The notes under the pieces: model-generated
Seen by the model: the letters and a program-made list of their open reading frames with translations, nothing else
Database searches by the model: none
Told to the model about the DNA's origin: nothing
Origin: Candidatus Poseidoniaceae archaeon
GTDB taxonomy: Archaea; Thermoplasmatota; Poseidoniia; Poseidoniales; Poseidoniaceae
Reading direction: 5' to 3'
Length of the DNA stretch: 37,348 nucleotides
Assembly (NCBI GenBank): GCA_024958795.1
Contig: JANXHP010000068.1
Span: forward strand, 1 to 37,348
Shown: in pieces, positions 4,144 to 30,052 of the stretch
Layout: each line of letters starts with the position of its first letter
Numbering within the stretch: position 1 is the first letter of the stretch
Program-made: the position numbers and the translations under genes

Positions 4144-5343
4144 ATGGGTCTTCGTGTTGCTGTGCTGTCGCGTGGGCCGCGTTTATACAGTACGAGAAGG
4201 TTGGTTGAGGAAGCAAAAAAACGTGACATTGACGTTGAAGTAGTGGACCCGATGAAGTTCTCTCTTTTTGTTGCTGATGGTGACATTAATGTCACACACA
4301 AAGGTGAGCCATTCATGTTTGATGCAATAATTCCTCGAATTGGTCATTCTATTACCAAGCATGGTGTTGCAGTGTTAAGACAATTAGAACAATTAGATGT
4401 CTGGACTGCAAATACTGGTCAAGGAATATTGCAAAGTCGAGATAAACTACACGCTAGCCAAATACTTGCACGAAACAGAATTCCAATTCCAAGAACAACA
4501 TATGTGAGAGATACACTAGATATTGAGAATGCTGTTGAATCAGTAGGCGGTTTACCAGTCGTAATCAAAGTCACTTCTGGAACACAAGGTCAAGGAGTAT
4601 TCTTACGACATACATTACATGAAGCAACAAATCTAGTTCAAGGATTGCTGATGACTGGACGTTCAATTCTAATTCAAGAATATATTGCAGAATCGCATGG
4701 CAAGGATATCCGAGCCCTTGTTGTTGGCGACAAGGTGGTTGCGAGTATGCGAAGAAAAGCTAGAGGCAGGGAATTTAGAAGTAATTATCACCTTAATGGA
4801 ACTGTAGAAAGTGTTGACCTTCCTGAAGATTTTGCAGAGGTTGCTCGTCGAGCTGCCCGCGTATTAGGCCTACATATCGCTGGAGTGGATCTACTTGAAT
4901 CCGACCAAGGGCCACTGGTATTGGAAGTGAATTCTTCACCTGGACTTGAAGGAATTGAGAAAGCGAGTGGAATAAATGTGGCTGGTGAAATAATTGATTT
5001 TGTCATATCGGAGGCATCATTCTCAGAAGTTGATTTAGACCAATTGATGCGTACAGTTCCTGGGCAAGGCGTACTATCTCTTCAAATTAGAAATCATCCA
5101 AACCTTGTTGGTGAGCGATTAAGTGATCTATTCAAAACAGGTGAAATCGTTCCAGTATTTGCATTATCAAGAGATAATTCTCTGATTTGGAATCCAGATT
5201 CAGAATTGCAGTTACGATATGCTGATATTCTAATTTGCTATGGTGAACTTACTGAACTTCGCTCTTCTCTAAGACAGGCAATAGGTGAAATTCCTAATAA
5301 TTTGACACCTGAAGAACAAGAGTCCAAAATAGGTGTCGAATAA
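4144..5343 (+). CDS. rimK: RimK-family ATP-grasp ligase with C-terminal RCK_C/TrkA_C-like domain
   Basis: RimK-type enzymes use ATP to add amino acids, often glutamate, to a carboxyl end of a protein or cofactor; the substrate here is not known. The ATG at 4144 gives MGLRVAVLSRG, matching the usual RimK start; the 15-residue longer TTG version is unlikely. The ATP-grasp core spans about residues 90-285, with the Gly-rich ATP loop (SGTQGQGVFL) and the metal-binding end (LVLEVNSSPGLEGIE). The last about 90 residues (IRNHPNLVGERLSDLF ... YADILICYGE) resemble the RCK_C/TrkA_C ligand-binding domain of potassium channels and regulators, an addition absent from E. coli RimK. Related archaeal enzymes act in lysine/arginine carrier-protein, F420 or methanopterin glutamylation, so the exact role stays open. 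Confidence 0.85.
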   Translation: MGLRVAVLSRGPRLYSTRRLVEEAKKRDIDVEVVDPMKFSLFVADGDINVTHKGEPFMFDAIIPRIGHSITKHGVAVLRQLEQLDVWTANTGQGILQSRDKLHASQILARNRIPIPRTTYVRDTLDIENAVESVGGLPVVIKVTSGTQGQGVFLRHTLHEATNLVQGLLMTGRSILIQEYIAESHGKDIRALVVGDKVVASMRRKARGREFRSNYHLNGTVESVDLPEDFAEVARRAARVLGLHIAGVDLLESDQGPLVLEVNSSPGLEGIEKASGINVAGEIIDFVISEASFSEVDLDQLMRTVPGQGVLSLQIRNHPNLVGERLSDLFKTGEIVPVFALSRDNSLIWNPDSELQLRYADILICYGELTELRSSLRQAIGEIPNNLTPEEQESKIGVE

Positions 5344-5508
5344 TTACCACTTTCTGCAATATTTTGCAAGCAATTGCCGATGTCTTAATACAGCGTTGCC
5401 AAAATTATCCGTCAAACTGTATAGTGAAATTTGGCGTATACGCGCGGTGGCTTCTTATGATAGGTCACTGTCCTCTTTCATGCTCTTAGGAGCAATTGGG
5501 ATGTACGG

Positions 5509-5520
5509 CCGCTTCGGCGG
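5509..5520 (+). other. CCGC-TTCG-GCGG tetraloop hairpin before or in the start of xerA
   Basis: A perfect 4-bp stem closed by a UUCG tetraloop with a C-G closing pair, a very stable RNA hairpin. It lies between the two candidate xerA starts (5501 and 5558), so it is either in the leader or codes for Arg-Phe-Gly-Gly. Confidence 0.45.
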
Positions 5521-5557
5521 TAGGCGATTAACGCCAAAAAAACGCGGAGGAAGAGAG

Positions 5558-6631
5558 ATGCGGTCACGCAAAGCACTGAAACCAAGCCAACTTAGGCTGG
5601 ATGCTGAATCGTTAAGCCTTCCAAACCGATTAATTCACTTGCAAGACCTTGATTGGGTTAGTTGTTATCAACAACAATTGCGTACTGAAAATAAATCTGA
5701 AAACACTCGCCGAAATTATATGTGTCATCTTAGAAGTTTGATAGAAACTACATTATCTGGAGAAAATGTACTATCACAACAAGATTATGATTCTATGACC
5801 ATAATTGAATTGGCATCAAGAATGGAACCGCTAAATGGCCGAATTGACCGTTGGGTTCATGCTCAAGCCGACCTAAAACCTACAACTTTCAATGCCAAAC
5901 TCGCTGCAGCAAAACATTTGTTGAAGTGGCTTGGACAAATATGGCCAGACCATATTGGAAGAGTAAAGACTGGCAAGAGATTACCTAGAGTCTTATCTCG
6001 AAGTGAATTGTCAATGGTATTAGAAGCCTCACGATTAAGTGAAAATGCTGTGGCTTCATTGGTTGTTGCCATGTTGTTAGATACAGGCCTAAGGGTAAGT
6101 GAGATTTGTAATTTAGATATTAGTGATATCGATTTTGCAGATGGTTCAGCCCGAGTAATTGAAGGAAAGGGCGATAAAGACAGACTCGTATTATTTACAG
6201 ATAGAACATTGGATAGAATCAAAGCTTGGTTACCGATAAGAAATGAAAGGGCTGCTAAAACTGAATTAGCATTCTTACTCAACACTCGCTGTAGAAGATT
6301 GCAACCTCGTGGAGTCCAGAGGCTGATGGACAACTTAGCCATTGAAGCAACTATTCCGAAAGGAAAACTAACACCCCATGTATTGAGACATAACTTTGCT
6401 ACTGGATTACTTGAAAGAGGGGCAGACTTGGTCACCATTCAACGGTTGTTGGGTCATTCCAGTATAGCGACTACTAGGAATTATCTCGACATTTCAGATC
6501 AAACACTGCGCGAAGTTTACCATCGTGCTCAAGCATCTCGCAAAACTATTGAAGAGGAAGCAGCACAACAACAACATGATGTTGAAGAATTAATTGAAAC
6601 AACACCATCTACCAGTGCAATAGGTATTTGA
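5558..6631 (+). CDS. xerA: XerA-type tyrosine recombinase
   Basis: The protein is a site-specific recombinase of the XerC/D family. In archaea XerA resolves chromosome dimers at a dif site; integrases of mobile elements share the fold. All catalytic residues are visible, numbered from ATG 5558: Arg179 (TGLRVSEI), Lys204 (EGKGDKDR), His274 and Arg277 (HVLRHNF), His300 (LLGHSS) and the nucleophile Tyr309 (TTRNYLD). The N-terminal SAM-like core-binding domain covers about residues 30-130. At 357 aa it is slightly longer than most XerA. I chose 5558 because GGAGG lies six bases upstream; ATG 5501 with AGGAG is an alternative that adds an Arg/Gly-rich N-terminus. No phage genes lie nearby, which favours a housekeeping role. 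It ends one base from a small convergent gene. Confidence 0.88.
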   Translation: MRSRKALKPSQLRLDAESLSLPNRLIHLQDLDWVSCYQQQLRTENKSENTRRNYMCHLRSLIETTLSGENVLSQQDYDSMTIIELASRMEPLNGRIDRWVHAQADLKPTTFNAKLAAAKHLLKWLGQIWPDHIGRVKTGKRLPRVLSRSELSMVLEASRLSENAVASLVVAMLLDTGLRVSEICNLDISDIDFADGSARVIEGKGDKDRLVLFTDRTLDRIKAWLPIRNERAAKTELAFLLNTRCRRLQPRGVQRLMDNLAIEATIPKGKLTPHVLRHNFATGLLERGADLVTIQRLLGHSSIATTRNYLDISDQTLREVYHRAQASRKTIEEEAAQQQHDVEELIETTPSTSAIGI

Positions 6632-29849: not shown

Positions 29850-29879
29850 TAATTTGATTTATAATAATTCATTGAGTAT

Positions 29880-29951
29880 GGGCGATGCAGTCTTTGTTCT
29901 GGACTGAGGAAAATCAATAGTTACCGAAGGAAGATCAAAGACGCATTGCCC
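29880..29951. other. 72-base long hairpin with a tRNA-like end, next to tRNA-Arg
   Basis: Bases 29880-29896 pair with 29936-29951 to form 16 base pairs (one G-T pair, one bulged A) around a loop of 39 bases. In the minus orientation, the sense of tRNA-Arg, it begins GGGCAATGC and ends TGCATCGCCC then A, the same 3' end as tRNA-Arg. A TATA-like TTTATAAT at 29859-29866 would also allow plus-strand transcription. The loop holds GAGG and CCGA segments that could form tandem G-A pairs as in a kink turn. It may be a small RNA, a processed trailer or a decayed repeat of the tRNA end; the strand is not settled. Confidence 0.45.
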
Positions 29952-29988
29952 ACTTTACTGTATAATGATGAATCAAAGTGGGCGATGC
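29943..29988. repeat. 14-bp inverted repeat linking the tRNA-Arg 3' end to its trailer
   Basis: Bases 29943-29956 (GCATTGCCCACTTT) are complementary to 29975-29988 (AAAGTGGGCGATGC) with one G-T pair and an 18-base loop. The second arm includes the last 10 bases of tRNA-Arg, and the first arm is also used by the neighbouring 16-bp hairpin, so the two stems exclude each other. Confidence 0.7.
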
Positions 29989-30052
29989 AGGATTCGAACC
30001 CGCGTCGACGGGTTCGAAGCCCATCAGGATATCCAGGCTACCCTAACCGCCC
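29979..30052 (-). tRNA. tRNA-Arg (anticodon TCG)
   Basis: On the minus strand the acceptor stem GGGCGGT/ATCGCCC, D stem GGG/CCT, anticodon stem ATGGG/CCCGT with loop CTTCGAA (anticodon TCG) and T arm GCGGG-TTCGAAT-CCTGC all form. The discriminator base is A and CCA is not encoded. No intron is seen. It reads CGA and, by wobble, other CGN codons. Confidence 0.95.

Follow-up and report, generated by a model that had tools for sequence, protein, structure and literature searches.

The 3' ends of tRNA genes are classical docking sites for mobile DNA. Repeated DNA with copies of such an end is represented by the rtT repeats of the E. coli tyrT operon, where tandem units downstream of the tRNA each hold a copy of its 3' end. 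Integron attC sites consist of an arm-loop-arm palindrome beside a repeated short core and form arrays, a layout resembled by the units described here. In archaea, the casposase of Aciduliprofundum boonei recognises TCAAATC (T-loop sequence) beside the tRNA-Pro 3' end and duplicates 14-15 bp (PMC6614799). Charybdis elements integrate beside tRNAs in Poseidoniales hosts (PMC12324425).

The stretch of DNA analysed (the window; 37,348 nucleotides) was contig C118 of an 86.8% complete genome of Marine Group II (Candidatus Poseidoniaceae). This host group is among the most abundant archaea of the surface ocean. As stated in the original prediction, TGGGCGATGCAG occurred twice (29879-29890 and 29979-29990) at a spacing of exactly 100 bp, and the right copy was the antisense 3' end of tRNA-Arg(TCG), because this gene occupies the position on the minus strand (Table 1). 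The 11-base core GGGCGATGCAG of the repeat had no further mismatch-free occurrence in the window. Both alternative pairings that had been claimed were recovered. The left hairpin (29879-29952, folded as 29870-29962) reached -35.3 kcal/mol on the plus strand (z -6.2) and -27.2 kcal/mol on the minus strand (z -4.3), and its fold energy was equalled by 0 of 200 shuffles; on the right, 29943-29956 paired with 29975-29988 (14 nt, complementarity 93%). In the left flank of the tRNA gene, shuffles reached a match equal to the direct tRNA-end copy in 0 of 5000 cases and one equal to the inverted copy in 38 of 5000. From the evidence given below, the feature is probably a decayed unit of a family of very small insertion elements, mostly without genes, whose target in Poseidoniales is the 3' end of tRNA genes.

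Table 1. Features of the tRNA-Arg(TCG) locus in the window.
Feature	Position	Strand	Evidence or detail
tRNA-Arg(TCG), host tRNA gene	29978..30052	-	ARAGORN and Rfam tRNA, 53.1 bits
X, tRNA 3' end (CTGCATCGCCCA)	29979..29990	-	exact repeat
AT-rich spacer	29954..29978	none	ends CTTT/AAAG extend the X/X' palindrome
X', inverted copy of tRNA 3' end (GCATTGCCCAC on +)	29943..29953		inverted repeat 93%; 10/11 complementary
Palindromic core, type II	29890..29942		arms GTCTTTG/CAAAGAC; GGACTGA..GAAGGAA on +
Distal direct copy of X	29879..29890	-	exact, 12/12
Spacer of a further unit, probable remnant (ATAATAATTCATTGAGTA)	29859..29878		alignment; inspection of L013
Convergent neighbour outside the element, Asp/Gly-rich repeat protein of 1434 aa	25545..29849	+	

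The spacer ends CTTT/AAAG (29953-29956, 29975-29978) lengthened the X/X' palindrome and showed compensatory differences in relatives. The first base of the core (29890) overlapped the distal X copy, and the putative spacer remnant matched spacers in the array of a relative (G025). The type II core was kept in the units of three relatives, and a related core was present in a tRNA-Ala array of G047.

Among 62 genomes of the genus, the neighbouring gene adjoined tRNA-Arg only in a small clade. The tract from this gene to tRNA-Arg held a single unit resembling that of the window in G033 and G047. At the same tRNA, a tandem pair of units with different cores plus a remnant was present in G025, a single unit of the second core in G034, an unrelated hairpin in G007 and a remnant only, without the unit, in G024; in the remaining genus members whose flanks were read, tRNA-Arg was present without a unit. 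No clean empty counterpart of the window's locus was found, which counts against a mobile element. Spacer and core types were combined differently among genomes, and therefore units have been shuffled; their junction arms (CTTT/AAAG, TTCAC/GTGAA, CTTG/CAAG, CTCTC/GAGAG) were self-complementary in every pair. The window's unit type was also present in AH-273-O19 (L040; record title without "MAG").

Behind the same tRNA-Arg, at 20-50 nt from its 3' end, other members of the genus had another conserved motif (roughly TACCC..GGGTACTCC), seen in L016, L017, L018, L022, L024, L029, L031 and L033-L035. Homologues of the neighbouring 1434-aa gene came from Candidatus Poseidoniaceae. Relatives of the repeat protein ended beside tRNA-Glu(CTC) (L046:5503 onward, compared with L044, L048 and L052), and in L046 the antisense tRNA-Glu was interrupted after GTGCTCGTACCGGGAT, as if DNA had been inserted there or the contig rearranged. 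A relative of the Poseidoniaceae repeat protein was also encoded on a contig titled Deltaproteobacteria (L058, AH-558-G13), possibly mixed material.

Searches were based on a model of the window-type unit (R1) and a 42-position covariance model of the commoner core (R2). R2 matched in 13 of the 170 genomes of the family and in 16 of the 318 genomes of the order (Poseidoniales), covering six genera and two families, with up to 14 core copies per genome. About 50 of the 64 examined cores adjoined a tRNA gene, directly 3' of it. All 41 tested tRNA-adjacent cores lay on the 3' side (none 5') at +13 to +176, in both orientations. The unit order was tRNA 3' end (X), AT-rich spacer, inverted X, palindromic core and direct X; the second direct copy was usually present, not in every unit, and the tRNA stayed intact at occupied sites. 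The end copies matched the respective adjoining tRNA (Leu, Gln, Pro, Val, Ser, Arg, Ile, Ala, Met, Trp, Tyr, Lys, Gly, Glu or Thr), with an inverted copy of the own tRNA of up to 23/23 nt in the second family (L224). Direct copies had a variable start in the T-arm, ended at the tRNA 3' end or slightly past it and were ~12 to 28 nt long, several of them 12-16 bp and others 20-28 bp. Unit size was ~90-370 bp, as a rule without genes.

About a dozen cores, mostly from genus g10, lay between protein genes, often some 10-60 nt from a stop codon, and most had no significant copies at their flanks; their position counts against the mobile-element reading. Cores of sister species occupied apparently orthologous places between protein genes (L172/L188 from G164 and G163, L206/L209, L186/L217), and one of these was tandemly duplicated (106 bp) in G163 only.

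With R1, a further array of several tandem units was found behind tRNA-Ala in G047, sharing the core words TTCCTTCG and TTCAGTCC with the window-type unit. The 3' flanks of other tRNAs in this genome held copies of the own end (Trp, Tyr, Met, Gln, Val and others), and the Met, Gln, Glu and Arg(gcg) units were exact or near-exact tandem duplicates, where the two tRNA-Met arrays, both close to contig ends, may represent a single locus present twice in the assembly. In a direct-copy test against a mismatched-tRNA null (~0.1%), 8 of 30 tRNAs passed in G047 and 1 of the 33 examined in the window's genome (G000), namely tRNA-Arg(TCG). The window's own core scored 2.4 bits with R2 and was not recognised, a further point against a mobile element. 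The tRNA-Ala core that bridges both core types belonged to the R2 training set. The window core is a second type, and its tie to the family rests on R1, the shared words and the identical anatomy and tRNA-Ala array, not on R2. R1 matches in L067 and L068 (E 0.04-0.06) and an R2 match inside an ORF (L166) were taken as chance; the R2 match L184:6-46 was a junction hairpin rather than a core.

At a dozen tRNA loci, filled sites differed from empty ones by 94-1653 bp. Relative to G000, the extra DNA measured 94-1653 bp in G047 (Gly, Val, Trp, Ala, Glu, Arg(gcg), Met, Gln) and 146-265 bp in G025 (Arg(tct), Trp, Leu, Ile, Gln); at Arg(tct) and Ile, the native flank picked up at the first base past the tRNA end. 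The 1.65 kb insertion at tRNA-Ala of G047 (L085:5263-6950, C4) is a unit with cargo: a 372-aa ATP-grasp gene lay between two tRNA-Ala 3' ends, accompanied by an orphan 25-nt tRNA end. The idea of an integration scar at the tRNA gene is thus supported by filled and empty sites at many tRNAs, tandem units and a patchy distribution, and the proposed comparison of sites with and without the segment yielded both states at other tRNAs of the family. Local duplication with palindrome-forming replication errors behind tRNA genes would need no mobility; palindromes promote slippage, and exact tandem duplicates were present in G047. Since one core family recurs in six genera, at many different tRNAs as well as in gaps between protein genes, this origin is very improbable.

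The original prediction had also proposed an RNA, either a trailer switch controlling tRNA maturation or a small RNA mimicking the tRNA end. Such a functional RNA, in the trailer or antisense to it, would adopt a fold like the tRNA acceptor/T-arm, be cut by RNase P and RNase Z and regulate or protect tRNA 3' ends. It would agree with the strongly folding hairpin, the tRNA-like 3' end that terminates the unit, the position of all tested tRNA-adjacent units 3' of the tRNA and the covarying stems. In the main core family (62 distinct cores), double changes occurred in 7 of 8 stem pairs, with 68 double-changed cells against 11.6 in shuffles and 2 G-U cells among 496; fitting the core alignment to the model biases it towards pairing generally, but not towards Watson-Crick over G-U pairs. 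In the type II units (the kind present in the window; n = 6, too small a number for a verdict), 92% of cells were paired and double changes numbered 5 against 1.7 in shuffles, with a few G-U cells. The compensatory changes sought by the covariation check were present in the main core family, but they were almost only Watson-Crick, which speaks against RNA. Mismatches between X and X' (tRNA end and inverted copy) comprised 23 G-U, 16 A-C and 46 transversions, with little strand bias. Covariation and mismatch pattern together suggest, rather than prove, DNA symmetry or symmetric decay instead of a one-strand RNA helix, and a DNA palindrome is favoured over an RNA switch because covariation in the core arms is nearly all Watson-Crick. 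Neither the trailer switch nor the tRNA-end mimic found support, since this tRNA lacks a unit in most relatives, the arms are almost free of G-U pairs and the mismatches show little strand bias. With cores in either orientation and further copies behind protein genes, and with the unit lacking from most same-genus genomes that have the same tRNA, a functional RNA is quite unlikely. At gathering and lax Rfam thresholds, tRNA alone was above threshold, with rsmX and others far below; on related arrays, again only tRNAs exceeded it. Riboswitch, H/ACA, C/D, hammerhead and kink-turn readings of the hairpin, compared by eye only, found no support.

The family is read as mini-elements with a specific target site that are mobilised in trans. 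A trans-acting recombinase or integrase would place each unit at the T-arm/acceptor end, duplication of the tRNA 3' end would preserve tRNA function, and the repeated tRNA ends would then permit tandem gain and loss; the core palindrome would be a candidate protein-binding DNA site. An integrase gene of its own is absent from the element because the units are too short to encode one. Tyrosine recombinases (PF00589) numbered mostly one per genome, in carriers and non-carriers alike, which counts against a mobile element; this shared enzyme, located at 5333-6631 in the window, is probably the Xer-type recombinase of the chromosome. G025 yielded none, and G034 had a second tyrosine recombinase of 313 aa (L153, G034:C1:846-1361), perhaps from a plasmid or island, and no relatives of L153 were found in viral contigs. 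HUH (Y1) transposase (PF01797) was detected in 0 of 16 carrier genomes, Cas1 (PF01867; Cas1-solo) in 0 of 16 genomes, many of them incomplete, and reverse transcriptase (PF00078) in none of the carriers searched; three strict core patterns sought in viral contigs gave no match. The absence of an enzyme weighs little, because most carrier genomes are only 57-88% complete.

To our knowledge, no integration chemistry explains an inverted copy of the target; that ordinary integration leaves it unaccounted for counts against the mobile-element reading. Gene-free mobile DNA might capture two copies of the adjoining tRNA at each insertion, one direct and one inverted, by a target-guided or fold-back-templated process, and colonise many tRNA genes of one genome; this is considered rather unlikely. 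A more specific form of trans mobilisation would treat the units as mini-islands moved by the tyrosine integrase of a helper (for example a Charybdis-type element that carries an integrase, or another satellite), with an attachment site from the tRNA T-loop to the 3' end. The direct copies run from a variable point in the T-arm to the tRNA 3' end, like those of tRNA islands (PMC4383910), and Charybdis elements insert beside tRNAs in Poseidoniales (PMC12324425); however, most carriers searched had no second integrase, viral contigs lacked the strict core patterns, and both the two orientations and the inverted copy are atypical, so that this form is doubtful. A casposase-like (Cas1-type) enzyme could insert repeatedly at one tRNA end with target duplication and thereby build arrays, comparable to CRISPR adaptation. 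Although several direct copies measure 12-16 bp, against the 14-15 bp duplicated by the A. boonei casposase (PMC6614799), others cover 20-28 bp of the tRNA, terminal inverted repeats were not seen and Cas1 was found in 0 of 16 genomes, which makes this enzyme a most unlikely agent. By analogy, Charybdis or a casposase could be suggested as helper for the trans-mobilised mini-elements favoured here.

Together with the units of relatives, the 100-base gene-free unit behind tRNA-Arg points to a small undescribed DNA family inserting at tRNA ends. No description of this tRNA-end unit family was found in open-licence papers; it may be named elsewhere. The inverted copy of the target is its most interesting point, and the family provides a testable case for the tolerance of tRNA genes to serial insertions.

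The rtT repeats belong to one locus, whereas the present units occur at many tRNAs and have an inverted copy and a conserved core. REP/BIME palindromes with RAYT transposases are likewise dispersed and intergenic, but here the Y1 transposase was seen in 0 of 16 carriers and the flanks are copies of the host tRNA end. Compared with integron attC sites, the repeat is the host tRNA end and the loop is conserved rather than the arms, which vary (e.g. GCGTGCGC/GCGCACGC, compared with attC boxes GTTRRRY/RYYYAAC); an integron integrase was not found within the PF00589 search. Charybdis elements share the host order, and some integrate beside tRNAs, but they are ~4.6 kb with around 10 genes, and no link to the unit core was seen. 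Casposons are archaeal, target tRNA 3' ends and duplicate the target; the units differ in lacking Cas1, polymerase and terminal inverted repeats, and their repeat length varies (~12 to 28 nt), in contrast to a fixed duplication of 14-15 bp. tRNA genomic islands (Islander type, tyrosine integrase) share insertion at the tRNA 3' end, a regenerated tRNA, a displaced fragment at the far end and tandem arrays, and a regenerated tRNA, displaced fragment and precise empty site were found at other tRNAs of the family. In contrast to these islands, the units are ~90-370 bp long, gene-free as a rule and without integrase, and add an inverted tRNA-end copy and a palindromic core in either orientation. 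Mostly gene-free units of ~100 bp at tRNAs of some fifteen amino acids, with inverted target copies, would imply an insertion or copying mechanism unseen in known tRNA islands.
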